Assembly (NCBI GenBank): GCA_012033355.1 | Contig: JAAUQZ010000022.1 | Span: 1 to 35,112 of the forward strand | DNA length: 35,112 bases | Direction: 5' to 3' | From: Leptolyngbyaceae cyanobacterium RM1_406_9 | Lineage (GTDB): Bacteria; Cyanobacteriota; Cyanobacteriia; Elainellales; Elainellaceae | Part shown: positions 17,390 to 34,105 of the stretch, piece after piece | How the letters are laid out: every line of letters begins with the position of its first letter | Position numbering within the stretch: position 1 is the first letter of the stretch | Translations under genes and position numbers: made by a program | The notes under the pieces: generated by a model | Database searches by the model: none | What the model saw: the letters and a program-made list of their open reading frames with translations, nothing else | Told to the model about the DNA's origin: nothing

Positions 17390-18483
17390 CTTTGGGTACT
17401 GTGTCCTTACCACCACGTTGAGTTTTCCCCTAGTCCTATGCTTACAGCGTCTTTGGGATAAGTAAACCACAGTGTAGGGGTGAAGGGCTATTCGCCCATA
17501 CCAAAATTTGCGGTCTATGTAAGTGAAAGTAAGTGAAAACCGCTGTAAGCCATTGTTATATTTTGGCATTGTATGGCGATCGCAGAATTAACATCGAACT
17601 GTCATAAGTTCATAAAAGCTATCCCCTCTGGTAGGATATGCCGACAACCTCCACCCACTGCGAACCTGGCAGCAATGCTATATGAACAATTGATGAAAGT
17701 CGCTAAGACATCTTGCTGATGAAGAGAAAGGCGAAATACAATGTAGTTGGGGTGCAAGATATGTCTTATGTACTTCAGCAAAGTAAAGATGTACAGCACA
17801 TATGCCTAGCGCGATTCAGCAGCTACTCCCTCGAAATTCAGCAGAGTGTAGCGGCAGGCTGTCATTAGGCAATCGTTCTACTTTACATAAAGAGTCATTT
17901 GCTGAATGTTAGCAACTCATTACAGCACGGCAACTCATTTTCAAACATTCCCTTAGACTTAAAAACAAGTATTTCTACGACCAGTACGACATCAGGTTAT
18001 CAGGTTGCCATTGAGCTAGCCTAGACGAACTATTTTTCTGAACTTCTTCAAGGTTTAGAGGAGCTTTGCAGTCATTCGCGTATTAAGTTACAGAGCGATT
18101 TTTCTCACCAATTCTTTTAGCTTTCTTTCTAATTTACAAACGTAGCTAATTTCATCAAAAAAGCATCCTGATGATAGGCCATTTCCCAGTAATTATTGAT
18201 AGGGCAAGCTGAGCGATGCTAGTTCAACTTATATCGATTTGAGTTTAAACAAAATAGATCCCAGAGGACAAGAAGAATAAACCCTAGGTTGAGAGTAGCT
18301 TCGCATAGAACTGGTATTAGAACGAAGCTTCTATCATCTTAATTTTGGGATAAAGCGCTACCATGTCAGAGAATTTGAACACCTCAATGTGTAGGTAAAC
18401 CATCAATTCATTTGTAGAACTAAACATGAGAATTTGTTTCCTTACCAACTTCCTCACTAATAGGTTCCCCGGATAAAGAAAAA
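17390..18483. other. Gene-poor intergenic stretch
   Basis: About 1.1 kb with frequent stops in all frames, lower GC than its surroundings and few HIP1 sites. Short open frames here lack ribosome sites and protein-like composition. I see no tRNA, no clear terminator and no recognised RNA. Given the chemoreceptor remnant that follows, it probably holds further decayed sequence. Confidence 0.6.
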
Positions 18484-18700
18484 CTGAGTAAACTCTTTTT
18501 TAAAGTAGCGGATACCATAAGTAACGTGGTTGTAAGTAACCAACAAATCTTGCTAAATCTAAAACAGCAACTAGATGGCATTCAGTAAGTTGTTCAAGTG
18601 GATGAAAGTAGTTGACCAGGGTGCAAAGGAAACTGCTGCGGGTTCAACTCAAACCAAAGTAGGCATTTCCTAATGCTTTAGTTTTGAAGGAAATGGCATA
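18484..18700 (+). pseudogene. Decayed 3' end of a methyl-accepting chemotaxis protein gene
   Basis: The stretch translates, with in-frame stops and one frameshift, to a close relative of the C-terminus of the intact receptor downstream. [20 protein letters not shown] matches [20 protein letters not shown] of the intact gene. After a stop, a phase change near 18600 gives VDQGAKETAAGSTQTKVG against [21 protein letters not shown] similarity is also evident. The rest of this copy is missing or unrecognisable. It ends about 85 bp before the intact gene, so it looks like the remnant of a tandem duplicate or of a recombination event. Confidence 0.85.
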
Positions 18701-18783: not shown

Positions 18784-20235
18784 ATGAAGAACTTCGGTAG
18801 TCTAAAAATCAGAACTCGTATTTTTTTGGGGTATATGCCTCCTTTGGTTCTGCTGTTTATCTTGGGTGGATTTACTTATTCAAATGTAGTGAGTCGAGAA
18901 AAAATAAACGAAGAAATAGAAGCTTCGTATACCAAGATCAATCAAGTCACTCAGTTAGCACTCGGTTTAGGCAGAATGGTTAGGGCGAGTAGAGCGCCAG
19001 TAATCAATCCTGAAAATACTGATGCTTTCCAGGCTGCTTACGAGGATGGACTTCAGCGCTATCAGCAGGCATCCACAGGCATCCTGGATCTACTAGATGA
19101 TGCCGAAAGTCGAGAGAAGATGCAGGTTGTGCTAGCGGATGGTGAAAGCTTTGTGGCGGCTGGGGAGAGAGTATTTGATCTGGTGAGAGCAGGTCAAGTT
19201 GAGCAGGCTACTCAGCTTATAGAAGAATTAAGGACACCTACTCTAGATTCAACAACAGATGAAATTTTGCAAACCGAACTGGCTCGTTTGGATGAGAAAA
19301 AGCTTCAAGCGGCGTCCGCTGCAAATGCTTTGCTCTTGCTGGTAACGGCTGGCACTCTCCTAGCTTCGGCGCTAACTATACTTTCGGGTGCATTAATTAC
19401 AGCGGGAATTAGCCGGACATTGCAAAAATCGGTTGGTTACATCACGACTTCCTCTAACGAGATTGCCACAACTGTAGAGGAGCAGGAGCGCGTTGCCCAT
19501 CAGCAGGCGGCTTCAGTTAACGAAACGACGACGACGATGGATGAGCTAGAGGCATCTTTCCGGCAATCGGCAGAGCAAGCTAAAGCAGCGGCGGCAGCAG
19601 CACGTCAGGCACTTGGCTTAACAGAGAGTGGGACTCAAGCCGTCGGAGAGAATATGGAGGGTATGTTTGCTCTGGAAAAGAAGGTTGGAACTATTGCTGA
19701 ACAAATGCTGCAACTGAGTGAGCAGGCCAATCAGATTGGTAGTATTTCACAACTTGTGTCTGATATCGCCAGCCAGACTAATATGTTGGCACTCAATTCT
19801 TCGGTGGAAGCAGTTCGTGCGGGCGAACACGGCAAAGGGTTCACCGTAGTCGCCAACGAGATTCGCAAGTTGGCTGATCAAAGTCAACGATCTGCTGACA
19901 AGATTAACGAACTGGTGTCTCAGATTCAAAACGCGATTAACTCAACCGTAATGGTGACTGAGGAAGGAACAAAAACTGTCTCAACGGGTGTAGAAATTGC
20001 CAGGAGAACTGAGCAAGCCTTTGTAGGAGCAGCAGAAGCGGTTAACCAGGTCGTTTTGAACAATCAGCAAATTTCATTGAATCTGAAGCAACAGTTGGAC
20101 GGTATTCAGCAGGTGGTACAGGCGATGGAAACCATTAATCAGGGAGCCAAGGAAACGGCTAGTGGCATCACTCAAGCTAAAGTTGGAACTCAGCAACTTA
20201 ATGAAACGGCTATGGAGCTTAAACAATTGATGTAA
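18784..20235 (+). CDS. Methyl-accepting chemotaxis protein (chemoreceptor) without an evident HAMP domain
   Basis: The 483-residue receptor has TM1 at about 15-36, a helical periplasmic sensor (about 37-180, four-helix-bundle size), TM2 at about 181-209, and a cytoplasmic coiled-coil signalling domain. The conserved hairpin tip is [20 protein letters not shown] (331-350) followed by [17 protein letters not shown], where CheA and CheW dock. Between TM2 and the signalling helices I see no HAMP domain of about 50 residues; the helices start almost at once. There is no C-terminal pentapeptide tether for CheR/CheB. GGGAG lies shortly before the ATG. It is the first gene of the chemosensory cluster and the likely input to the CheA hybrid. 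Confidence 0.93.
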
Positions 20236-20579: not shown

Positions 20580-23500
20580 ATGAAGATAGATGATGAAGAG
20601 CTTCGAGATCTATATGAACTCTCCAGCCAAGAGCGATTACGGCGACTGGAGGCGGGTTTGTTGCACCTGCAAACGCACCCAGAGGATGAAGCTGTTTTAG
20701 AGGAACTGCGGCGAGACGCTCATAGCCTCAAAGGGGATTCCAGAAGTGTGGGTGTGGAAACGGTTGAATCGATTATTCAACAGGTTGAAGCAATTTTAAA
20801 GACGATTCAGGCTAAGCGAGTTTTACCTTCAATGGTGAGCGATCGCCTCCACCAGGGATTCAAAGCCATCGGTCAGTTAGTCCACGAAGCAGTAACGGGG
20901 CAGCCCAGCGCAATAGACATCACCCACTTCGTTGAATTATTAATGGCGGCTCATCAGGAGTTAGAAACGCTACAGTCTATCACGCCTGCTGAAGTCGCTC
21001 AAACCGACCCAACTGGTTTATCTAGCTTTATTGAAGATGAGGAACTACGAAACCTGTATGAGTTTTCTAGCCGCGATCGCCTGGAGAAACTCAAAGCAGG
21101 GTTACAGTATCTTCAGGAGCATCCTGCTGATGCGGCTACCCTTGAAGATCTGCGACGGGAAGCCCACAGCCTGAAAGGAGATTCCAGAAGTGTTGGTGTT
21201 GAAGACATTGAAGTGTTAATCCAACAGATTGAGGAGATTCTGAAGAACGTTCAGTCGAGGCGGTGTGCTTTAAATGCTTTAGTGGGCGATCGCATTCATC
21301 AAGGGTTAGAGGCGATCGAGCAACTCGTCCACGAAGCTGTAACAGGACAGCCCAACACTGCCGATGTGACTCAGATCTTAGATCAACTGGTGCAGGTTGT
21401 TGACCACCCAGAGGAATTCTTACCCGATCATACTATCGCTCCATCAAGCTTCATTGAAGACGAAGAGCTACGTCACCTCTATGATATTTCTAGCCAACAC
21501 CATCTACATAAACTAGAGGAAGGGCTGCAATATCTGAGACAGCATCCCAACGATGTGTCAACCCTTGAAGAGCTACAGCGAGAAACTCATAGTCTTAAAG
21601 GTGACTCTAGAGGGGTAGGGGCTGATGCGGTAGAAACGCTGACCCACCAGGTTGAAGAGATTCTTGAGGCTGTTCAATCGGGCAGTATTGTGTTTGACTC
21701 ATTTGTGGGCGATCGCCTGAATCAAGGACTAGAATCTATCCACAAGTTAGTTTGCGAAACAGTAACAGGTCAACCTAGCGAAGTAGATGTGCTTCAGGCA
21801 ATTGACCTCTTGTTATCGACGCTTGAAGAAGCAGAAGCACCAGCACAGTTCTTGTCAGAGCCAGAGATAGCCCTGGCAACGGTTTCAACAGTAAACCCGG
21901 AAACATTAACCTCAGAAACAGTAACCCCGGAAATAGAGAATTTAATCGCTCCACGCGCCGCAACCTTTATTGAAGATGACGAACTGCGGGAAATTTATAA
22001 GATTTCCTGTCGAGAGCGGCTACAGCGGCTGGAAGCAGGTTTGCTGCGACTGGAAAAGCATCCAGAGGACGAAGCTACTCTAGAGCAGTTGTTGCGGGAA
22101 TCCCATAGTCTAAAAGGGGACTCTAGAAGTGTGGGGGTGGACCCTGTAGAAACGCTGATTCACCAGATTGAAGAAACTTTGGGAGGAGTCAAGCGAAAAC
22201 AGATTGCCCTGACCCCAGAGGTGGGCGATCGCCTTTACCAGGGATTAGATGCGATCGGCAAACTGGTTCACGAAGCAGTCACCGGACAGAGCGGACAGGT
22301 TGATACATCTCAAGTCCTCAGTTCTCTAACCGAAATCACACCACCCGTTAACGACCAGGACTCGTTACCCCCCACTCCGGAAAAAGTCACTACCCAAACT
22401 CTCGCTCCTACCGAACAAAAACTACTTTCTCCTTCCCCTGAAATTGATGAACTCTATCGCATTGATACCATTCGCGTTCAAACTCGCGATCTCGATGCTT
22501 TAATGACCCAAGCGGAAGAACTCACCGTCACGAAGACCAATGTGGTTCAAATTGCTGCGGTCATTGAGGAAATGGCTAACCTCTGGAGGGATTGGAAGAG
22601 CAGCAGCAGAAACCAGGGACTAGCTTCTAAATCCTCCTCCAAAGCCCTTGCGTATCAAGAACAGCTAGAGAGCTTGATTAGCTCTCTCAGAACCTCTACT
22701 CAAGACAGCAGCACCCGACTTGACAAGATCTCCGGAGAACTCAGGGAAAAAATTCGCACCCTGCGACTGCTGCCTCTCTCTACGGTGTTTCAGACTCTTC
22801 CTCGAACCGTAAGAGATTTAGCCAAACAGCAGTCCAAAGATGTAGAGCTAATTATCGAAGGAGGGGACACCACCGCAGACAAAAGCATTCTTGAAGAAAT
22901 CAAGGATTCTTTGATGCACATGGTTCGCAATGCGATCGATCATGGCATTGAGACTCCCAATGAACGACAGGCGATCGGCAAACCTGCTACTGCAAAAATC
23001 TGGTTAAAAGGCTATCAAACCGACAACAAAATCGTCATTGAGATTGCTGATGATGGGCGCGGGCTAGATCTGGAGAAAATCAAACAAACTGCTCTAAAAC
23101 GTGGACTGTATGACTCAGAAGAGCTAGCAGTTATGTCTCCAAGTCAGATCCAATCACTCATCTTTGCCCCTGGTTTTTCAACTCGCAGCTTCATCACAGA
23201 AATCTCTGGAAGAGGAATTGGGTTAGATGTCGTCAGAACCAACATTGAGCGGTTAAAGGGAGAAATTCAAATTGAGTCAAATCCTGGAGAGGGCTGTACC
23301 TTCCGAATTCAACTTAACACGAGTCTAACGACCGTCAACACAGTACTCTTAGACGTGCAGGGATTAATTCACGCTTTGCCCATTGAGTTTTTAGAAACCA
23401 CACTTTTAATATCCGAAAACCAAATTTCTACCACCGAAGACAAGGCAACCATTACCTGGAATGGACAGGAAATTCCGGTTGCAGATTTGGCCGAATTGTT

Positions 23501-24173
23501 GAAGCTGTGGGACTCACACGCTTACACTCCTCCTGCGACTACTCCTCAACGAAAAAGTAACTTACAGCAATGCATCCTGGTCAAAGTTGGAGAAGAGCGA
23601 GCTGGATTCTTCATCAATCGTCTGTTTGATGCACAGGAAATTGTAATTAAACCTCAGAGCCAAGTCTTGAAGCGGGTACGCAACGTTGTAGGAGCAACTA
23701 TCCTACCAACAGGAGAAGTTTGTACCATTCTCAATGCTCCTGATTTGATTAAGTCGTTACAGGCGCAAACTACACCCGCTATCCCCATTCGCTCCAAAGC
23801 CGTTCAGCGAAAACCCACCATTTTGCTTGTAGAAGACTCCGTGCCAGTGCGTACTCAGGAAAAGCGACTTTTGGAACGAGCAGGATACGAAGTTGTCATT
23901 GCTGTTGATGGACTGGACGGCTACGAGAAGCTGCAAACTCGTCCATTCGATGCGGTGCTATCTGACGTGGAAATGCCCAATTTAGATGGTTTGTCTCTCA
24001 CTGCCAAGATTCGTCAACATCAAGAGTACAGGAATCTACCCATTATCCTGGTGACAACTTTAGATTCAGATGCAGACAAAAAGAGGGGTGCTGATGCAGG
24101 CGCTGACGCTTACGTAATCAAAGGAAGGTTTAATCAGGATGTTCTTTTAGAAATTCTAGGAAGATTAGTTTAA
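20580..24173 (+). CDS. cheA: CheA-type hybrid histidine kinase with four Hpt domains and a C-terminal receiver
   Basis: The 1197-residue protein starts with four Hpt domains, each with the phospho-acceptor motif HSLKGDSR: H48, H196, H337 and H509. They share about 110 residues each (FIEDEELR at the start, VTGQP near the end), so they arose by internal duplication. Then comes a CheA core: P3-like helices about 625-745, the HATPase with N box HMVRNAIDHG (780-789), DDGRG (824-828), the FAPGFSTR lid (862-869) and GRGIGLDVV, and a CheW-like domain about 915-1062. The C-terminus is a receiver about 1079-1197 with phospho-acceptor D1129 and K1181. There is no P2 CheY-binding domain. Phosphate can pass from the kinase to any Hpt and to the attached receiver or CheB. 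The fused receiver may be a sink or output. Confidence 0.95.
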   Translation: MKIDDEELRDLYELSSQERLRRLEAGLLHLQTHPEDEAVLEELRRDAHSLKGDSRSVGVETVESIIQQVEAILKTIQAKRVLPSMVSDRLHQGFKAIGQLVHEAVTGQPSAIDITHFVELLMAAHQELETLQSITPAEVAQTDPTGLSSFIEDEELRNLYEFSSRDRLEKLKAGLQYLQEHPADAATLEDLRREAHSLKGDSRSVGVEDIEVLIQQIEEILKNVQSRRCALNALVGDRIHQGLEAIEQLVHEAVTGQPNTADVTQILDQLVQVVDHPEEFLPDHTIAPSSFIEDEELRHLYDISSQHHLHKLEEGLQYLRQHPNDVSTLEELQRETHSLKGDSRGVGADAVETLTHQVEEILEAVQSGSIVFDSFVGDRLNQGLESIHKLVCETVTGQPSEVDVLQAIDLLLSTLEEAEAPAQFLSEPEIALATVSTVNPETLTSETVTPEIENLIAPRAATFIEDDELREIYKISCRERLQRLEAGLLRLEKHPEDEATLEQLLRESHSLKGDSRSVGVDPVETLIHQIEETLGGVKRKQIALTPEVGDRLYQGLDAIGKLVHEAVTGQSGQVDTSQVLSSLTEITPPVNDQDSLPPTPEKVTTQTLAPTEQKLLSPSPEIDELYRIDTIRVQTRDLDALMTQAEELTVTKTNVVQIAAVIEEMANLWRDWKSSSRNQGLASKSSSKALAYQEQLESLISSLRTSTQDSSTRLDKISGELREKIRTLRLLPLSTVFQTLPRTVRDLAKQQSKDVELIIEGGDTTADKSILEEIKDSLMHMVRNAIDHGIETPNERQAIGKPATAKIWLKGYQTDNKIVIEIADDGRGLDLEKIKQTALKRGLYDSEELAVMSPSQIQSLIFAPGFSTRSFITEISGRGIGLDVVRTNIERLKGEIQIESNPGEGCTFRIQLNTSLTTVNTVLLDVQGLIHALPIEFLETTLLISENQISTTEDKATITWNGQEIPVADLAELLKLWDSHAYTPPATTPQRKSNLQQCILVKVGEERAGFFINRLFDAQEIVIKPQSQVLKRVRNVVGATILPTGEVCTILNAPDLIKSLQAQTTPAIPIRSKAVQRKPTILLVEDSVPVRTQEKRLLERAGYEVVIAVDGLDGYEKLQTRPFDAVLSDVEMPNLDGLSLTAKIRQHQEYRNLPIILVTTLDSDADKKRGADAGADAYVIKGRFNQDVLLEILGRLV

Positions 24174-24358: not shown

Positions 24359-25447
24359 ATGCCCATTCGAGTTTTGTTGGTTGAAGATTCTCAAATTGCT
24401 CTTACTATCCTAAAACGAATTTTAAGCTCATCTCCTCAAATTGAGGTTGTAGGGGAAGCTCAATCGGGTTTGGAAGCTTTGGCTTTGATTCCTGAAGTAC
24501 AGCCTGATGTAATTTGTACAGACCTTCATATGCCTAAGATGGACGGTCTAACGTTTACGTCTGAGGTGATGGCGCTTTATCCACGCCCGATTTTGGTAAT
24601 CAGCGCGTCAGTTCAAGAAGAGGACACTCATCAAGTTTTTCAGCTTTTAGAAGCAGGAGCAGTCGATATTTTCCCAAAACCACTTTCTGGTTTAACTGTT
24701 GAAAATCACGCTTTTGGGAAAGAATTAGTTAACAAAATTCAGATTCTCTCTGGCGTTAAGGTGTTAACCAAACGACGAAGATCGACCCAAAAAACTAAGA
24801 AATCCGAACCTATTCAAGTTCCTACTTTTATTTCAAATTACTATCATAAACCTAAGATTGTCGTGGTAGGGGCATCAACAGGTGGGCCCCAAGCACTTTA
24901 CGACGTATTTACTCAATTGCCACACGATTTTCCGCTTCCGATCATTTGCATTCAGCATATTTGTCTTGGTTTTTTGCAAGGTTTGATTGACTGGCTTGCT
25001 AACAGTTGCCCTCTACCCATTCAAATTGCTCAACCGGGAGAGATGCCAAAGCCAGGAAAAATTTATTTTCCCCCTGAGCAGCGACATTTAGAACTAGACA
25101 ATAGAGGGCGTTTTGTTTGCTCTGATGCTTTGCCATTAGGAGGGCATCGCCCTTCAGTTACCGTTACTTTTGTCTCAGTTGCTAAGACTTACGGAAAATC
25201 AGCGGTGGGAATATTGTTGACGGGAATGGGCAGAGATGGTGCAGATGGGATGCAGGCGATCGCCGAAGCAGGTGGTTTTACCATTGCTCAAGATGAGGCA
25301 ACTTCTGTTGTATTTGGAATGCCTAAAGAAGCGATTAATCTAGGGGCAGCAAAACAGGTTTTACCGATTCAGGCGATCGCCCCCGTATTATTATCTCTAC
25401 TCAAATCAGATTCCTCTGATTTAGCCAACCGTGAAAATCGAAGATAG
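24359..25447 (+). CDS. cheB: Chemoreceptor glutamate methylesterase/deamidase CheB
   Basis: The 362-residue protein has an N-terminal receiver (about 3-120, phospho-acceptor D55 in CTDLHMPKMDG, K107 in FPKPLSG), a basic linker (KRRRSTQKTKK), and the methylesterase domain. The catalytic triad is visible: S173 in VVVGASTGGPQAL, H200 in CIQHI, D293 in LTGMGRDGADGM. It removes methyl groups from receptor glutamates and is activated by phosphorylation from CheA. There is no good ribosome site before the ATG. Together with CheR just downstream it gives the pathway a methylation-based adaptation branch. Confidence 0.96.
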   Translation: MPIRVLLVEDSQIALTILKRILSSSPQIEVVGEAQSGLEALALIPEVQPDVICTDLHMPKMDGLTFTSEVMALYPRPILVISASVQEEDTHQVFQLLEAGAVDIFPKPLSGLTVENHAFGKELVNKIQILSGVKVLTKRRRSTQKTKKSEPIQVPTFISNYYHKPKIVVVGASTGGPQALYDVFTQLPHDFPLPIICIQHICLGFLQGLIDWLANSCPLPIQIAQPGEMPKPGKIYFPPEQRHLELDNRGRFVCSDALPLGGHRPSVTVTFVSVAKTYGKSAVGILLTGMGRDGADGMQAIAEAGGFTIAQDEATSVVFGMPKEAINLGAAKQVLPIQAIAPVLLSLLKSDSSDLANRENRR

Positions 25448-25459
25448 CAAAGATTATCG

Positions 25460-26629
25460 ATGAATGCCGTAGATCAATCTTGTAAAAATCCGATGAGGAG
25501 CATCAGGAAACTTAACGTGTCAACCATAGAACCTTTGAGTGCGGAGCGAAAAGAGGCCTTTATCCAACTCATCGCTAAGCACACTGGCATAGAAATTAGG
25601 GAAAGAGATCAAGCGAGTCTGGGCGCAAAAATCTTTTCACGGATGAACGTCCTTAAGTTAAATTCGTCAATCGCTTATTATCAACTACTAGAATCTTCTA
25701 CTGCTGATAGTCACCAGGAATGGTTAGACCTGGTGACACTGTTGACTAATGGTGAAAGCTATTTCTTTCGCGACAAAGAACAGTTCTCGCTTTTGCGAAA
25801 TCACATCCTGCCAGAACTAATTCAGCGTAAGCAAGATAGTAAGACGATTCGTATTTGTAGCGCTGGCTGTTCATCAGGAGAGGAGCCTTATTCGATCGCT
25901 ATCCTTCTACAAGAACTCATCCCTGATTTAGAGCAGTGGAATTTACTAATTTTAGGGGTAGATATTAATCAAGCTGCTTTAGAAAAAGCAAGAGACGGAG
26001 TTTATAGTTCATGGTCATTTAGAAGCGTTGATCCTAATATCAAGCAGCAATACTTTACATTAAACAATGATCGATACAAAATTGATCAAACTATTAAAGA
26101 AATGGTGCGTTTTCAAATCTTAAATTTGATTAAAGATGAGCTTCCTCAACAGGATTCTGATTTGAGGGATATGGATCTGATTATTTGTCGTAATGTCTTC
26201 ATTTATTTTGAAAGGTTGGCGATCGCCAAAGTTCTAAATAAGTTCTACCACACCCTTCAGCCGTCAGGCTATCTGCTTACTGGACACGCTGAACTCTCTA
26301 ACCAAAATCTTAATCTATTTCAGATTAAAGTATTTTCAGAGTCACTAGTATATCAGCGTGCAGAAAAGGATTCAGCCAGTGCATCATCTTCCCTAAGATT
26401 AGACGATTTTGAAGACTGTTATCCAGAAAACTTATCCCATGATGCAAATCACGACACCGACAGCGATCCTCACACTCGAAGAAACATCAGGATGCAGCAA
26501 ATTGCGCTCAATCTTCTGAGACAGCTTCCGCCTGACATGACCATTCAAAAGCTAGGCAACCTGACTGCCGCTGAACTGATTTTACAGCTAGAAACAGAGT
26601 TAAAAATTATCGACCAGGAACTATCATGA
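25460..26629 (+). CDS. cheR: Chemoreceptor methyltransferase CheR
   Basis: The 389-residue protein has the CheR N-terminal helical domain (about 30-100, with the TNGESYFFRD segment) and the SAM-binding domain: RICSAGCSSGEEPYSIA for SAM binding, GVDINQAALEKAR, and DLIICRNVFIYF. It transfers methyl groups from SAM to receptor glutamates. An extra C-terminal region of about 90 residues follows, without TPR repeats; its end (LGNLTAAELILQLETELK) is helical. The first 25 residues are unlike the family, so the Met at residue 12 could be the true start. It lies 12 bp after cheB, and its stop overlaps the cheW start by ATGA. Confidence 0.95.
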   Translation: MNAVDQSCKNPMRSIRKLNVSTIEPLSAERKEAFIQLIAKHTGIEIRERDQASLGAKIFSRMNVLKLNSSIAYYQLLESSTADSHQEWLDLVTLLTNGESYFFRDKEQFSLLRNHILPELIQRKQDSKTIRICSAGCSSGEEPYSIAILLQELIPDLEQWNLLILGVDINQAALEKARDGVYSSWSFRSVDPNIKQQYFTLNNDRYKIDQTIKEMVRFQILNLIKDELPQQDSDLRDMDLIICRNVFIYFERLAIAKVLNKFYHTLQPSGYLLTGHAELSNQNLNLFQIKVFSESLVYQRAEKDSASASSSLRLDDFEDCYPENLSHDANHDTDSDPHTRRNIRMQQIALNLLRQLPPDMTIQKLGNLTAAELILQLETELKIIDQELS

Positions 26630-27723
26630 GCGAACAATCTTATTTCATCTTTAGCGTTAATCAACATCGCTATGGCATTGACACCATTTATGTCGAAGAG
26701 GTATTTGCTCTTCCTGAGTTAACGCCGACTCCAAAAGCCTCTCGCGACATCGTTGGTATTCTCGATTTTCGAGGAGAGAGCGTGCCAGTCATGAATCTGA
26801 GTATTACACTGGGACAACCCTCACTAAACTACCGACTAACGGATAATTTAGTGGTTTTAAAGTGGGAAGATTTGCGTATCGGGATCATTGTGAATCAGGT
26901 TCACGATGTTAAAACTATTTCTTCTAACGAAATTAAGACAGAAATTTCTCATGAGCAGGAGTGGACGGGCGTTGAGCGGAAGAAGATTATTGCGGGAAAA
27001 GTTAGCAATGAGAATATTCTCATTCTTAGCAATCCAGGAAATTGGCTCTGGTATGCAGAGATACAAGAACTGATATCGGTCAAAGATTCCTCAGCAGCGA
27101 CTCAAGCCCACTCTCCTTTCAATCAACAGTCGATTAGTGGGTTTGAGTCAACCCTGACGGAGCAGCCAACCCTGTTTCCCAATGCGACTTCCCAGGAAAG
27201 AGAAATTTTCCGAAAACGCGCTGATAACTTGAAGGCTTCAGTTCAACGACAAGACTTAAAAGACTTAAAGCCCTTAACAGTGGTTGCTTTGGGCGATGAC
27301 TTTTTTGGGGTTGATGTAGAAGCCGTGCGCGAGTTTGTAGACGTGCGAAAAGTAACGCCTATCCCTTGTTGCCCTAGCTACATTATTGGAAACATGAATC
27401 TACGTGGTGAGATTCTGACTCTGATTGATTTGCGTGAGTTTTTGGAACCTTCTAAGCGATCGACTCAAACCATTGAAGGTGCCAAAGCGATGGTGATTGA
27501 AGTCAGAAATGTGGTTGTTGGAGTAATGGTCAAAGCGATTGGCGATACGATGTTTCTCTTAGACCAGCGGGAAGTGATGACCAGCCCTAACATCAGCGAC
27601 TCGATTAATCTGAACAAGAAATATCTTCAGGGAATTGCTTCCTATCATGAGAAAGTGATGACCATTCTGGATATCCAAAAAATCTTTTTTAACAGTGGGC
27701 TAATCATTGATGAAGTAATTTGA
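26626..27723 (+). CDS. cheW: Double CheW-domain coupling protein
   Basis: Two CheW-like domains lie in tandem: about residues 4-148 (YFIFSVNQHRYGIDTIYVEE, DIVGILDFRGESVPVMNL) and about 212-358 (LTVVALGDDFFGVDVEAV, YIIGNMNLRGEILTLIDLRE), joined by a polar linker. CheW bridges receptor tips and the CheA regulatory domain; tandem forms can carry two docking faces. It is the last gene of the cluster, with ATGA overlap to cheR, so it is translated with it. No separate CheY follows; the next gene is on the opposite strand. Confidence 0.93.
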   Translation: MSEQSYFIFSVNQHRYGIDTIYVEEVFALPELTPTPKASRDIVGILDFRGESVPVMNLSITLGQPSLNYRLTDNLVVLKWEDLRIGIIVNQVHDVKTISSNEIKTEISHEQEWTGVERKKIIAGKVSNENILILSNPGNWLWYAEIQELISVKDSSAATQAHSPFNQQSISGFESTLTEQPTLFPNATSQEREIFRKRADNLKASVQRQDLKDLKPLTVVALGDDFFGVDVEAVREFVDVRKVTPIPCCPSYIIGNMNLRGEILTLIDLREFLEPSKRSTQTIEGAKAMVIEVRNVVVGVMVKAIGDTMFLLDQREVMTSPNISDSINLNKKYLQGIASYHEKVMTILDIQKIFFNSGLIIDEVI

Positions 27724-27760: not shown

Positions 27761-28321
27761 TTAGTCTATCGATATTCCCGCAAACTGCTTGGCTGGAATG
27801 TAGTTGTATCGTTCCAGTTCAGCAATAACCTTATCTACACTCTCATCCAGACTTTCTTTCGCTGTACAGCAGACTACTTCAGGATGGAGCGGCGCTTCAT
27901 AGGGGTCATCAATACCCGTGAAATTTTTGATTTGACCTGCTCGCGCTTTAGCATACAAACCTTTAATGTCCCGCTCTTCACAAATTGCCAGCGGGGCATC
28001 CACATACACTTCTACAAAGTTCTCTGTCATTTGACGAATTTCATCTCGAACAGAACGGTATGGACTGATAGCTGCCGCGATCGCAATTACACCATTGCGA
28101 CTAAGCAAGTTAGCAACAAACCCAATTCGCCGGATATTGATGTCGCGGTCTTCTCGACTAAAAGTCAAACCCTTCGACAGGTTGGTTCGCACGATATCCC
28201 CATCTAGCATTTCAACTTTACAGTTACGGTTTCTGAGTTCTCGTTCAACGGCTTTTGCAATGGTTGTTTTGCCTGAGCCGCTCAAGCCTGTAAACCACAG
28301 CGTGACTCCCTGGTGTTGCAT
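27761..28321 (-). CDS. cysC: Adenylylsulfate kinase (APS kinase)
   Basis: CysC phosphorylates APS to PAPS with ATP in the cytoplasm. The 186-residue protein has the full family set: P-loop GLSGSGKTT (about 13-21), DGDIVRTNLSKGL, FSREDRDINIRRIGFVA, the ISPYRSVRD active-site Ser segment and the lid KGLYAKAR followed by FTGIDDPYEAP. It lies downstream of sat on the same strand, after a palindromic repeat. Because the CysH in this block looks like an APS reductase, the PAPS made here probably feeds sulfation, for example by the sulfotransferase at the head of the block. Confidence 0.96.
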   Translation of the reverse strand: MQHQGVTLWFTGLSGSGKTTIAKAVERELRNRNCKVEMLDGDIVRTNLSKGLTFSREDRDINIRRIGFVANLLSRNGVIAIAAAISPYRSVRDEIRQMTENFVEVYVDAPLAICEERDIKGLYAKARAGQIKNFTGIDDPYEAPLHPEVVCCTAKESLDESVDKVIAELERYNYIPAKQFAGISID

Positions 28322-28397
28322 GATTAATAACCTCTAAGTTCATTGAAAAGATGAATAGGTAGTGATACAGGCAGGACTTACGCATTTCCTGTGGAAC

Positions 28398-28415
28398 AAG
28401 GGGCTTAAGCCCCTT
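28398..28415. repeat. 18-bp perfect palindrome between sat and cysC
   Basis: AAGGGGCTTAAGCCCCTT, a near copy of the hairpin at 20262-20285 (AAGGGGCT-GA-AGCCCCTT). Two members of one palindrome family in this window. Confidence 0.85.
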
Positions 28416-28445
28416 ATTAGCATGGCGATCGCACGACTGTGCGTT

Positions 28446-29626
28446 CTATTTTGCCACTGTAACTTTGGCTGATCTCATGGCTGCAACCAAAATTTCGGCA
28501 ATTTCTGGGCGCGTAAATTCTGCGGGAGGAACTTGCCCTCGATGCAGCATTTCGCGCACTTTAGTCCCAGATAGATGGATTCGTTCTTCAACAGTACTCG
28601 GACTCGTTTTACTAGTCGCCATTGATTGAGTACGAGTGCAGTAAAAGGCGTGTTCAAATTTTATAGGTGTAATTTCAACTCACTTGATCCAAAGCGATCA
28701 AAAATGTGCTGAGCGTCATAGGTTCCATAGTAGGAACCGACCCCGGCATGATCTCGACCAATGATAAAGTGAGTGCAACCATAGTTTTGACGGGCGATCG
28801 CGTGCATGATCGCCTCTCGTGGTCCTGCATAACGCATCGCAGCAGGAAATACCCCTAGCAAGATCCGATCTTTGGGATAGTACTTGTCAATCAGAGTTTC
28901 GTAGCACTTCATTCGCACTGGGGCTGGAATATCGTCAGATTTTGTCATACCCACCAGCGGGTTAATAAATAATCCATCCACAATCTCCAGGGCAATTTTT
29001 GTGATGTATTCATGAGCGCGATGGATCGGATTGCGCGTTTGGAAGGCAACCACTGTATCCCATTGACGCTTAGCAAATTCAGCACGGGTAGTCACCGGAG
29101 TTAAGCGATAGTCTTGAAAATCGCTGTATGGAATTACGTTAACCAGAGTGATGGGCCCTCCAAGATAGACTTCGCCCTCAGCACGCATTGCCTTAACACC
29201 TGGGTGAGCTTCTTCGGTTGTGAGATAAATCTTCTCAGACTCCTCGTTCTGATTCGGTTTAAACTTACTCGTAACGGTCATTACCGCTAAAATCTCACCA
29301 TTCGGATGTTCCAATGCAATTTCAGAGTCAAGCCTACACTTTGCAGCCAATGCTTCAGGCACCTGTAAAGTAACCGGAATACTCCAGGCAAGACCATTGC
29401 TCAAATGCATTTCGTTGACAATGCTATAGTATTCCTCCTCTTCAACGAAACCTTCAAGCGGACTATAAATTCCTGTGGCAATACATTCGATATCAGCAAG
29501 ATTACGTTGAGAAAGCGTCAAACGAGGCAAAGCATGAGCATTCTCAAAAGCTGTTTGACGCTCTATTCCTTTCAAAGTGCGGTCAATGAGATGACCCCCA
29601 TGAGGCTGAATCAGAGCTTTGGACAT
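28446..29626 (-). CDS. sat: Sulfate adenylyltransferase (ATP sulfurylase), frameshifted near the 3' end
   Basis: Sat makes APS and pyrophosphate from ATP and sulfate. Start chosen at 29624-29626 ([18 protein letters not shown]) with AGGAGG 7 nt before it; an upstream Met at 29719 adds unrelated sequence. Active-site motifs are intact: [12 protein letters not shown] and [16 protein letters not shown]. The frame then ends at 28661 after SSELKLHL. In the next frame the family C-terminus continues exactly: [54 protein letters not shown], with a stop at 28446-28448. Restoring one A in the AAA run (28673-28675) gives [11 protein letters not shown] and about 393 residues, the normal length. So a single base is missing in the sequence: error, mutation or slippage. 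If real, the C-terminal domain is lost. Confidence 0.9.
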
Positions 29627-29735
29627 GACTTTTCCTCCTAAGTTATTTGCTGCAAAAAACCAACAAACGTGAGTTCCCCAATAATCTCCAAAACCACCTC
29701 GGTGTCTAATCAAACTCAATGCAGATAGGAAAAGT

Positions 29736-29770
29736 CTCTAGAAGGTTGTTTCTCCACAACCCTCCTAGAG
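29736..29770 (-). terminator. Hairpin after the SLC13 permease gene
   Basis: CTCTAG at 29736-29741 and CTAGAG at 29765-29770 close a stem that continues as GGTTGT pairing with ACAACC, with small bulges. On the minus strand it begins 7 bp after the permease stop and is followed by ACTTTTCC, consistent with an intrinsic terminator between the permease and sat. Confidence 0.65.
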
Positions 29771-29776
29771 ATAAAT

Positions 29777-31567
29777 CTACAGTCCATACAGCAAAATGAT
29801 AAGTGGAGGAACGACTAGCATCATCAGTAGGTTAAGGGGCGCTCCAATCCGCACGAAATCCAGAAATTTATAGCCACCTGGACCATAAACCATCGTGTTT
29901 GTTTGATAACCGATGGGGGTCATGAAGCTATTGGATGCTGCAAAAGTGACCGCAAACATGAAGGCATAGGGGTTAAGGTCAAGTGTTTCTGCCACCTTAG
30001 CAGCAATGGGTAAAAGAAGAACGACCGAAGCATTGTTAGAAAGAATCTCTGTAATGAGAGACGTGATTACGAAAAAGAACGTTAGAATCCAGTATCCCGA
30101 CAGATCGCTTCCTAACCCTACAAGGCTATCCGCTAGCCATTGAGTTGCGCCTGATTTGTCCATTGCTATTCCTAAAGGAATTAGACCCGCTAACAGGAAA
30201 ATGATATTCCAGCGCACGGCTTCATACAGTTCACCTGGCTTTAGACAGCCCGTTAGGATAATCAGCACAACTCCAACCAGGGCGCTCTGCAAAATAGGCA
30301 TCCAGTTGAAAGCCGCAGCCAGGACAACTCCAAGCCCGATGGCGATCGCAATCCCAGCTTTATCTCGTCGCAAGGTTTCTAAAGGACGCTGCTCAATTAC
30401 CAGCAGATCTCGGCTCGTTTGAATTCCCAAAAGGCTCTGCTCTGGACCTTGAACCAGCAGGACATCACCAAACCGTAAAGGAATTTTACTGAGCCGTTCG
30501 CGCAGAAACTCTTGCCCTCGACGAATTGCCAACACAGTAGCGTTATAGCGTTGCCGAAAGTGCATCTCTTCGAGAGTAGAGCCAATCAAACTAGAATTAG
30601 AGACAACTAAAACCTCAGCAATCCCCTCTTCTCCGGAACTCAGCTCAGCTTCTAGAGAGTCACGCCCAAATCTTACGTCGGGTAGAATGTCGATCCCCTC
30701 ATCATCTTTGATTTTGAGAAGATCTTCTCGACTGCCACGTACAATCAAAATATCTCCTGCCTGTAGCACCTTGTCTGCTAAGGGTTGCGGAAAGTGAGAG
30801 CCACTATGAATCAGTTCCAATACATCTACGTCAAATTTGCGTCGGAGTCCACTAGCCTGCAAAGTCTGCCCAATTAGATGAGAACGCGGTCTTACCACAA
30901 CTTCGCTCACATAGTCCTTGAGTCCATATTCCTGACTCACCACATCAGCATTTGGGTCTTTCCGATCTGGCAGTAGTCGAGGTGCAGCAAAGGCTAGATA
31001 GGCTAAACCGACGGTGGCACTGAGCAAACCCAATTTCGTGAATTGGAACAAGTTAAACGCTCCATACCCCAACTGTTCCGACAAGCCACTTGCCAAAACA
31101 TTTGTTGAGGTGCCGATTACAGTGATCATGCCTCCTAAAATAGTGACATAAGACAATGGAATGAGCAGCTTAGATGGAGAAATTCCCTGCCTTTTGCACC
31201 AGTCCTCCACAATTGGCAAAAACACCGCAACCACAGCAGTATTATTGATAAATGCTGAAATTGGAGCAACGATTGCCCCCATAGCGAAAATCTGCTGAGT
31301 CGAATGTTTCCCCCCCCACCTCCGCAGAAGGTCACTAACGATCTGAACTGCACCTGTGCGTTCAATACCAGCACTCAGGATGAACATAGCCATCACGGTG
31401 ATGGTAGCAGAATTACCAAAGCCAGAGATTCCTTCTTCTGGTGTTACTAGCCCCAATACCATCAGCAGAACCATGATTGTGATCGCTGTGATATCAATGG
31501 GCAGCCACTCCCCCACAAAACAGACTAGAGCCAGCGCTACAACGCCCAGAGTGAGAAAAATCGTCAT
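29777..31567 (-). CDS. SLC13-family permease with two RCK_C (TrkA-C) domains, probable sulfate transporter
   Basis: The 596-residue protein has two membrane halves flanking a soluble insert. The first half (about 1-205) contains SAFINNTAVVAVFLPIVEDW and GTSTNVLASG; the second (about 400-596) has the matching SNNASVVLLLPIAAKV and MTPIGYQTNTMVYGPGGY. These are the paired re-entrant hairpin motifs that bind sodium and anion. The insert holds two RCK_C domains (about 215-300 and 310-390), each ending in a GDxLLVxG-like strand (GDILIVRGSRED, GDVLLVQGPEQS). This architecture occurs in sulfate transporters of algae and cyanobacteria. Its place between cysH and sat makes sulfate the likely substrate. 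Confidence 0.88.
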   Translation of the reverse strand: MTIFLTLGVVALALVCFVGEWLPIDITAITIMVLLMVLGLVTPEEGISGFGNSATITVMAMFILSAGIERTGAVQIVSDLLRRWGGKHSTQQIFAMGAIVAPISAFINNTAVVAVFLPIVEDWCKRQGISPSKLLIPLSYVTILGGMITVIGTSTNVLASGLSEQLGYGAFNLFQFTKLGLLSATVGLAYLAFAAPRLLPDRKDPNADVVSQEYGLKDYVSEVVVRPRSHLIGQTLQASGLRRKFDVDVLELIHSGSHFPQPLADKVLQAGDILIVRGSREDLLKIKDDEGIDILPDVRFGRDSLEAELSSGEEGIAEVLVVSNSSLIGSTLEEMHFRQRYNATVLAIRRGQEFLRERLSKIPLRFGDVLLVQGPEQSLLGIQTSRDLLVIEQRPLETLRRDKAGIAIAIGLGVVLAAAFNWMPILQSALVGVVLIILTGCLKPGELYEAVRWNIIFLLAGLIPLGIAMDKSGATQWLADSLVGLGSDLSGYWILTFFFVITSLITEILSNNASVVLLLPIAAKVAETLDLNPYAFMFAVTFAASNSFMTPIGYQTNTMVYGPGGYKFLDFVRIGAPLNLLMMLVVPPLIILLYGL

Positions 31568-31792
31568 AAAGCAGAAGCATCCTCACGAAGCAGAAATACC
31601 TTTGCAGAAGGCTATGTTTACATTCAACCAAACCCTCAAGCGAATCACCTGCGGCACTGGAAACAATGGCAATTTCTCGTTCAAGCTAAGCCCTTTCCAA
31701 ATCTCCAAAAGGTTGTAGAAGAAAGGCTTCAAGAGATAGTGTAACCCTCCAAAATTGCATGGAAGAGCATCACTTTGATGGTTCTGTACTAG

Positions 31793-32125
31793 CTAGATGA
31801 AGCTAAGATCAGGGTTTTGAGCCATAATCTCAGCAATCTCGTCGTCCTCAGAAACCTCTTGATTGAAAATCTCTTTGAGAAAGAGAAAATATGTGGTGTA
31901 AACGCGAGTTGAGTCTCCCTCTTCCACGATAAAGAAAGGAGCTGCGTCTACATTGTGCTTCAGTGCTAAAGCAATGCCCTGGCTTGTCGGCTCATGCTCT
32001 TCGGCAGCAACAAATTCATCAATCTGATCGATTAGTCCTAACCTGTTCAAGTCGTCGATAACATTTGCCGACTTACGGCAGAGGGTGCCGTCTGCCTTCA
32101 TCTTTTTGACAACAGTAATCTTCAT
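31793..32125 (-). CDS. Thioredoxin-fold protein with a CxxS site, coupled to cysH
   Basis: The 110-residue protein opens with a beta strand ([13 protein letters not shown]) and then LCRKSANV, a CxxS arrangement where thioredoxins have CxxC and at the start of the first helix. NVDAAPFFIVE has the Pro of the conserved cis-Pro loop before a strand. This pattern is that of a monothiol thioredoxin/glutaredoxin-like fold. The start codon shares one base with the cysH stop (TGATG), so translation is coupled. APS reductases need a thiol donor for each cycle, so a role in reducing or docking CysH is a reasonable inference. It is unlike classical TrxA, and a regulatory role is possible. Confidence 0.65.
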   Translation of the reverse strand: MKITVVKKMKADGTLCRKSANVIDDLNRLGLIDQIDEFVAAEEHEPTSQGIALALKHNVDAAPFFIVEEGDSTRVYTTYFLFLKEIFNQEVSEDDEIAEIMAQNPDLSFI

Positions 32126-32865
32126 CAGCGGGCTACCCCTGATTCGTTCCTTACAAGATTAGCTTTATGGAAACCACACTCTTTATCAACTGCTTCTTCC
32201 CACCACCAGCGAGCTTCTCGCTCGTGCTGGTTTGGCAGCACCGTCCTAGTGCAGGGTTCACAGCCGATGCTGATGAAGCCTTTTGTGTGAAGAGTGTTGT
32301 AAGGCACTTTGTTGACAACGATGTACTGCCACACCTGGGCGGAACTCCAGTTGGCCAGTGGATTAAACTTAATGATCTTGTGGTTGCTGGTTGAAAACCC
32401 TGCATCGATTTGGACAACAGGGATAGTGGCACGAGTGCTGGGACTCTGATCTTTGCGCTGACCCGTAATCCAGGCATCAAGAGTAGCAAGTTTGCGACGC
32501 AGAGGACGCACTTTCCGGATGCCACAACACTCCTGGTGACCATCTCGATAGAAGCTGAATAGCCCTTTCTCTTTGACTAGCGTTTCGACCTCTGAGGACT
32601 CTGGAAAAACGATCTCCAGTGGAATTCCATAATGTTCTCTAACTTGGTCAAGCAACTGATAGGTTTCGGGGTGTAAGCGACCTGTATCAATTGAAAAGAC
32701 ATTGAAATCTGCTTTGATTTTCGATGCCATGTCAATTAAAATTACGTCCTCAGCACCACTGAAGGAAATTGAAATACGGTCGAACTTATCTAAGGCGAGC
32801 TTGAGAATCTCTTGGGGGTCTTTATTCTCGTACTCCAGTGCTAGATGGGTGATGTCAAGTTGCAT
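32125..32865 (-). CDS. cysH: Assimilatory adenylylsulfate (APS-type) reductase
   Basis: The enzyme reduces sulfonucleotide to sulfite and AMP or PAP. The 246-residue protein has the nucleotide PP-loop [28 protein letters not shown], and the C-terminal catalytic Cys C230 in ECGFHK. It also has C113, C114 (QECCGIRKV) and C202, C205 (GCEPCTR). This CC-x(n)-CxxC set binds the [4Fe-4S] cluster of APS reductases and is absent from PAPS reductases of the E. coli type. So APS is the likely substrate and CysC is not needed for reduction. The gene is the second of the minus-strand sulfur block, overlapped by the CxxS gene. Confidence 0.94.
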
Positions 32866-33010
32866 CCTGGTTGTTCCCTTATAGAGCGATCGCTACTTTA
32901 CGCTGTTTGGGCTTTCCTCGAAAGGGCAAGCTAAACTGCCAGAACCAAAGCATTAACAGATAGGCATCGCTTTAAGTTCTTTGCTCACCCTCTATCGAGC
33001 AAACGCTGAA

Positions 33011-34105
33011 CTAAACCGTTTGTTGAACCTTATCGTGCTTGTGCAAAACTTTAGCTTGATCTTGCAACAACCGCCCCTTCAGCATCTCAAGATAGGTGGC
33101 TCTAAACTTTCTCAACTGGTAGTCCTGTGGAGCCTTCATCTTCAGATCTATCCACGCTTGCTGCTTTTGCAACTCACTCTTCTCCTGGGCTTTGGCGATT
33201 GTATCGTTATCAATTCTAGCTTTGGCTGGTGTCATCTTTTCATAGCCATAGTAATCCATGTAGTCTCCAGCGAGTGTCTCGATAATTTCGATCTCCTCCA
33301 TGCTCATGGATTTTTTAAATTTATCGATGTTAGCAGGCAGCGGTTGACAACTGTTCGTCTCCCAGAGAGCGGACATGGTTGAGATACTTTGCGCTTCCTT
33401 AGACGCAGAAATATCAAGCATTGAGTCTAGGAACTCGATTCCAAAAAACTGACAAATTCTGCGAAGAACAGCTTCCTGATTAGTCAGGAAGTCCTCATAT
33501 CTAATGGTTAAAACCTTATCAGGATATTTCAAAGCTAAAGATTGAGCTTTGTCATAAGCCTGCACCCATCTTTGGGCATTTAACAGGGTATCAAAATCAT
33601 GAATGATAGCGCGATTGATACTACACACCTGAGCGCGTGGATCGCGAACTACATTCAAAAACAACATATCGTCAAACAGAGTAATCAAGTCCTCAGCATA
33701 GTACACGTTGTCAAGGGACTTATCCATCACTACTTTAGCGTCATGCCGTTGTCCAGCCTGAAATAGCATTTCCCAGGCAATGGAATGTACATTACGTGGA
33801 CGTTCTTTAACGGCCTGGAAGATAGTGATTGGGTCTAGCGCAACGTTTTCCCACTTAACCATCGTGGCATTCTGCAAGCCAATCAGATCGATAGCTAATT
33901 GAAAGTACGTATAGTCGTCTGAGAGATCTCCGTAAAGCTCCACAAGCGGCATGAAATCAACAATATGCAAAGGATATGGAGAGTAAAAATCCGGGCTGAA
34001 GTTTAATCGGAGGCGGAGTGCATGACTTCCACAACGCCGGATCGGAATCATCAAAATTGGCTTAGGTCTTTGAGAAGCCTGATCGGTATCTGCACTTGTT
34101 TGCAT
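33011..34105 (-). CDS. Sulfotransferase family protein
   Basis: The 364-residue protein has the two PAPS-binding elements of sulfotransferases: IPIRRCGSHALRLRL near residue 20-34 (5'-phosphosulfate loop, with Gly-Ser-His in place of the usual Gly-Thr/Ser pattern) and LNVVRDPRAQVCSINR at about 149-164 (3'-phosphate-binding RDPR). MVKWENV and LTIRYEDFLTNQEAVLRRIC are common family segments. A charged helical tail of about 80 residues follows the domain. The acceptor is unknown; exopolysaccharide or lipid sulfation is usual for bacterial members. The adjoining cysC provides the donor PAPS. There are 145 bp between it and cysH, so co-transcription is possible. Confidence 0.86.
   Translation of the reverse strand: MQTSADTDQASQRPKPILMIPIRRCGSHALRLRLNFSPDFYSPYPLHIVDFMPLVELYGDLSDDYTYFQLAIDLIGLQNATMVKWENVALDPITIFQAVKERPRNVHSIAWEMLFQAGQRHDAKVVMDKSLDNVYYAEDLITLFDDMLFLNVVRDPRAQVCSINRAIIHDFDTLLNAQRWVQAYDKAQSLALKYPDKVLTIRYEDFLTNQEAVLRRICQFFGIEFLDSMLDISASKEAQSISTMSALWETNSCQPLPANIDKFKKSMSMEEIEIIETLAGDYMDYYGYEKMTPAKARIDNDTIAKAQEKSELQKQQAWIDLKMKAPQDYQLRKFRATYLEMLKGRLLQDQAKVLHKHDKVQQTV

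Follow-up and report, generated by a model that had tools for sequence, protein, structure and literature searches.

CheA kinases with at least two histidine phosphotransfer (Hpt) domains account for 18% of all CheAs, with a maximum of 14 copies, and of these multi-Hpt kinases >90% carry a receiver and about 93% belong to the ACF and Tfp classes (PMC10782961). That most CheA proteins have one P1, as a preliminary description of the locus studied here had pointed out, is true, yet the multi-Hpt type is a well-described one. For ChpA of Pseudomonas aeruginosa, a review describes unequal tasks along the array: Hpt4–6 are charged by the kinase (autophosphorylation), the receiver exchanges phosphate with Hpt2–6, and PilG/PilH obtain their phosphate mainly from Hpt2–3 (PMC5812489). 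The role of several Hpts has nevertheless been called poorly understood for ChpA (PMC12632253), and the reason for their presence in many CheAs is a standing question.

The window analysed here, a stretch of 35,112 nucleotides comprising a whole contig of a Leptolyngbya-like cyanobacterium (genome assembly of 5.47 Mb, 83% complete), encodes on its forward strand a CheA-REC hybrid kinase of 1,197 aa (20580..24173; Pfam, AlphaFold model), which is 96–99% identical to a protein of Leptolyngbyaceae SM1_4_3 and represents a new example of the already known multi-Hpt CheAs. Its four Hpt repeats are located at 20586..20972 (R1, His48, codon 20721–20723), 21027..21422 (R2, His196, codon 21165–21167), 21450..21833 (R3, His337, codon 21588–21590) and 21966..22337 (R4, His509, codon 22104–22106, kinase-proximal), and are followed by the P3 dimerisation helices (22467..22769), the P4 ATP-binding kinase domain (22770..23324), the CheW-like regulatory domain P5 (23340..23765) and a C-terminal receiver with the phospho-Asp site D1129 (23814..24167), all on the forward strand. 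Four Hpt domains (whole-protein E 4e-42), HATPase_c, CheW and Response_reg scored above the Pfam cut-offs; H-kinase_dim gave a partial match just below threshold (21.9 bits versus a cut-off of 23), and the AlphaFold model shows two long helices at 635–678 and 687–729, i.e., extended dimerisation helices of about 95 aa. By sequence, P4 and the receiver are intact; N784 of the N-box and the glycine-rich loops in the former and D1129, E1085/D1086, T1159 and K1181 in the latter are invariant in the alignment of relatives. A P2 domain was not matched by Pfam within the open reading frame, and the NCBIfam search assigned the kinase to no specific CheA subfamily. On domain predictions, the single chain thus combines the Hpt, dimerisation, HATPase_c and CheW modules of a CheA, and with at least two Hpts and a C-terminal receiver it counts among the multi-Hpt hybrids.

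The surrounding cluster reads MCP-cheA-cheB-cheR-cheW(x2) on the same strand. System input is provided by an MCP-type chemoreceptor of 483 aa (18784..20235, MCPsignal E 2e-37), an orthologue of which sits immediately upstream of cheA in most relatives. Downstream follow CheB with receiver and methylesterase (24359..25447; Pfam, NCBIfam above the subfamily cut-offs), the methyltransferase CheR (25460..26629; Pfam) and a double CheW coupling protein (26626..27723; two CheW stretches in Pfam). The kinase belongs to a chemosensory system that is competent for adaptation through CheB and CheR. A decayed remnant of an MCP C-terminus with stops and a frame change (18481–18664, forward strand) lies immediately before the intact MCP gene; strain FACHB-471 has two intact tandem MCPs at this position.

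With the Tfp-class ChpA, the window CheA shares the tandem N-terminal Hpts, the lack of P2, the order P3-P4-P5 and the C-terminal REC (PMC12632253), as well as MCP, CheB, CheR and CheW homologues encoded alongside. However, ChpA carries eight or nine Xpt domains, and several have no His (Ser/Thr variants), whereas the window CheA has four Hpts, all with His, and the separate CheYs PilG and PilH of the ChpA system contrast with the absence of cheY from the chemosensory cluster of the window. Judged by Xpt count, the window CheA therefore does not appear to be an orthologue of ChpA. The traits of Tfp-class CheAs (no P2, REC, extended dimerisation, multiple Hpts) are all predicted, although ACF-class CheAs can share them. 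The host genome encodes PilT, and gene neighbourhood together with class resemblance suggests that the system probably steers type IV pili or related surface behaviour. Cyanobacterial tax/pix/hmp CheAs (PixL, Hmp, Tax3 type) resemble the locus in the accompanying MCP and CheW and, where relatives of the window are concerned, in a PATAN-REC regulator, whereas counterparts of the CheB and CheR that the window cluster possesses do not appear in the described pix set (PixG, H, I, J, L).

The preliminary description had placed the four histidines in nearly identical motifs of intact domains. This stands, as Pfam recovers four domains and the octapeptide HSLKGDSR is fully identical at His48, His196, His337 and His509; the whole repeats, however, share only 47–57% pairwise identity over 136–155 columns. 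Each repeat matches the Hpt model individually, which excludes chance as their source, and each is predicted by AlphaFold as a five-helix bundle (spans 6–130, 154–275, 295–417 and 467–584) with the phospho-His on helix 2 (pLDDT mostly about 80–94; the placement of domains relative to each other is unreliable at a pTM of 0.31). Spacing is uneven: loops of about 20 aa connect R1, R2 and R3, while R4 is flanked by about 50 aa on both sides. Synonymous sites between the repeats are near saturation (pS 0.62–0.85) and the duplications are therefore old. This divergence and a tree that pairs R1 with R1, R2 with R2 and so on led to the rejection of a recent duplication and of gene conversion. An assembly duplication was likewise rejected, because independent genomes share the four-copy array and the copies pair by position: four copies at matching positions are found in the independent assembly of FACHB-471 and in a diverged paralogue of another metagenome-assembled genome (MAG; contig C395 of G002).

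Across about 50 cyanobacterial relatives, one, two, three, four or five Hpt copies per CheA occur, and an Hpt profile search finds the type in many cyanobacteria, patchily within families; plasmid relatives (Azospirillum and others) gave only weak matches of 28–37%. In quick trees of the kinase core, a single clade (SH-aLRT 99) unites the HSLKGDSR-type proteins with three to five copies, and one three-copy protein, L084, falls outside it. Four copies were found only in the genus of the window, where all three sampled members have them: the window CheA, its FACHB-471 counterpart and the paralogue on C395 of G002. The Hpt tree groups R4 with the C-terminal copies of three-copy relatives (98/91), while R1–R3 form a genus-specific clade (95/94) whose positions pair across the three proteins; at the level of sequence relationships, this shows that R1–R3 arose via further duplication within the genus. 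Two-copy arrays had separate origins in several other lineages, and the position of the two-copy relatives with a lost His beside the poly-Hpt clade is not firm, the neighbouring forks being partly open. A frameshifted contig nearly identical to the window (L037, G002 C627) was excluded from the trees; its CheA is split over three frames at a MAG coverage of 4x, which may be a sequencing error, and the same MAG carries the diverged, intact four-Hpt paralogue on C395.

Are all four copies under selection, as the preliminary description had suggested from the intact histidines? Between the window and FACHB-471, dN/dS amounts to 0.083, 0.072, 0.085 and 0.105 for R1 to R4, compared to 0.28–0.46 for the linkers and 0.03–0.09 for P3, P4, P5 and REC, values which are approximate because synonymous divergence is about 1.1–1.4. 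As far as such ratios reach, they show all four repeats to be held by similar purifying selection in the lineage of the window. Read per alignment column, no phospho-His is missing from any of the three four-copy proteins, nor from 14 of the 15 members of the 3-5-copy clade. The exception is the three-copy protein L131 (G391:C239), which has lost the His in two of three Hpts and kept it in the third. This protein has a long branch, its open frame stops after P4, and its first and second Hpt are separated by degenerate LFQE-type repeats that span about 590 aa.

Outside the clade, the second His is replaced by Glu or Gln in six of the seven proteins in one set of two-copy relatives (L095, L096, L109, L112, L113 and L114, with L094 as the one retaining it), and copy 1 of L110 has Ser instead. 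Glu in place of the phospho-His could mimic the charged state. Because the His is lost in some relatives, its retention is no structural necessity and a kept His is informative. These losses would fit extra copies that are redundant and persist through drift or serve as structural spacers, with R4 alone mattering for phosphotransfer, as one canonical copy is enough in the two-copy relatives, L110 and L131. We consider this very unlikely for the window, since every protein of the 3-5-copy clade except the decayed L131 keeps all its histidines and the extra repeats have dN/dS values as low as R4, several-fold under those of the linkers. A variable number of His-less repeats in orthologues, which the preliminary description had named as evidence against selection for all copies, was thus found in part (one to five copies, some without His), and its claim holds for this lineage (dN/dS 0.07–0.11, His kept in 14/15) rather than as a general rule.

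The copies nevertheless do not look alike at the active site. R4 aligns without gaps to P1 of Thermotoga maritima CheA (1TQG), so that positions +3, +19 and +22 after the phospho-His match the Lys, His and Glu that are conserved in the P1 site; position +19 is His67 of E. coli CheA. The active-site Glu of CheA hydrogen-bonds the phospho-His (PMC3904827). All four repeats keep the His, K+3, G+4 and E+22, and Lys (or Arg), Gly and Glu are retained in nearly all Hpt copies of the 3-5-copy clade. R4 has the complete canonical site (H, K+3, G+4, H+19, E+22), whereas position +19 is Gln in R1 and R2. In R3 it is His, in the window as well as in FACHB-471, and R1–R3 are therefore not uniformly altered. 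Single-copy Hpts have the +19 His in 19 of 19 cases; single-Hpt orthologues, e.g., from Trichocoleus (L041) and Pantanalinema (L045), share the Hpt family, kinase core, REC and similar neighbour genes with the window CheA, and differ in having a single Hpt, whose active site is invariably the canonical HKGHE, instead of four. Among copies of the 3-5-copy clade, 13/13 C-terminal (kinase-proximal) ones have the +19 His versus 7/31 N-ward ones, the remainder of which mostly have Gln or Glu (Fisher p 1.5e-6, with copies counted without correction for kinship and the pattern spotted post hoc in one sample). At least 11 changes at +19 are required on the whole Hpt tree, N-ward Gln occurs outside the clade too (L084, L089, L090), and at least one canonical copy is kept in every protein examined. 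L089 and L090 belong to a set of two-Hpt CheAs (L087–L090) with about 130–370 aa between the Hpts, a stretch without Pfam match in L087 and L089.

The difference at +19 makes the four sites look unequal and suggests, as far as residues can tell, that the kinase-proximal copy is the main substrate and the other copies are modified helpers. We therefore propose, with a probability of roughly one half, a division of labour comparable to that of ChpA, in which R4 would be the main ATP-charged site and R1–R3 a secondary pool. The preliminary description had named buffering of phosphate and a wider dynamic range among the possible uses of four acceptors; read as equivalent acceptors, all four Hpts would be charged by P4 and simply enlarge the phosphoryl pool. 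The residues common to all four repeats, their similar dN/dS and a copy number that differs freely from relative to relative, which a dose effect would predict, are consistent with this idea, which is weakened, however, because the copies differ systematically at +19 with their place in the chain. As longer linkers also set R4 apart and the Hpts of ChpA, the measured precedent, are unequal, we regard four equal acceptors as possible, but rather doubtful.

In the proposed division of labour, the main target of the MCP-controlled P4 would be R4 of the other subunit in the dimer, while R1–R3 could serve as a tethered secondary pool that takes longer to fill, whether P4 charges it directly or phosphate returns to it via the C-terminal REC. 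From there, phosphate may be passed to CheB and a PATAN (PatA/PixG-type) response regulator, whose gene is found nearby in relatives. Each receptor array would then have a bigger phosphoryl pool with a different timing, and its donors would be tuned to more than a single receiver, as measurements on P. aeruginosa ChpA have shown for that kinase. A regulator of about 400 aa with a C-terminal receiver (PATAN type) adjoins the cluster or lies near it in relatives, those in the genus of the window included; in L109 its N-terminus is recognisable as DUF4388 (PATAN-like), and the protein shares 40% identity with the regulator of FACHB-471. The gene is absent from the window, which as a whole contig ends before the place the gene has in relatives, and no close orthologue was found in the 83%-complete host genome; the near-identical contig G002 C627 begins such a gene beyond the end point of the window.

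Such partners also bring up the option that each Hpt is tuned to its own regulator (REC, CheB, the PATAN regulator and perhaps orphan CheYs). R1–R4 are distinct orthologous lineages that predate the split of the three genus members and show no homogenisation, and the genome encodes many receiver domains, both of which would fit. The operon, however, has two receivers only, CheY-less clusters with three or four Hpt copies are the rule in the 3-5-copy clade, and single-copy relatives serve similar partners via one Hpt, all of which renders strictly receiver-specific donors unlikely.

Beyond this locus, multi-Hpt CheAs might, rather doubtfully, follow a common rule, in which phosphate from ATP enters at one canonical Hpt, usually the kinase-proximal one, and repeated tandem duplicates keep the phospho-His, swap the +19 His for Gln or Glu and act as receiver-charged or slow stores. 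If this were true, the sequence of an array would predict phosphate flow. As far as the literature could be searched, no description of the copy-number series or of the +19 pattern was found. The family offers a natural series of one, two, three, four and five copies in one orthologous kinase, including lineages without the extra His, together with a specific swap residue, and the question of why CheAs have several Hpts thereby becomes testable in proteins much smaller than ChpA.

Apart from the chemosensory genes, the window contains a convergent sulfate-assimilation cluster after cheW (27761–34105, reverse strand), which encodes an APS kinase, an ATP sulfurylase, a CitMHS/TrkA-C transporter, a PAPS reductase and a sulfotransferase.
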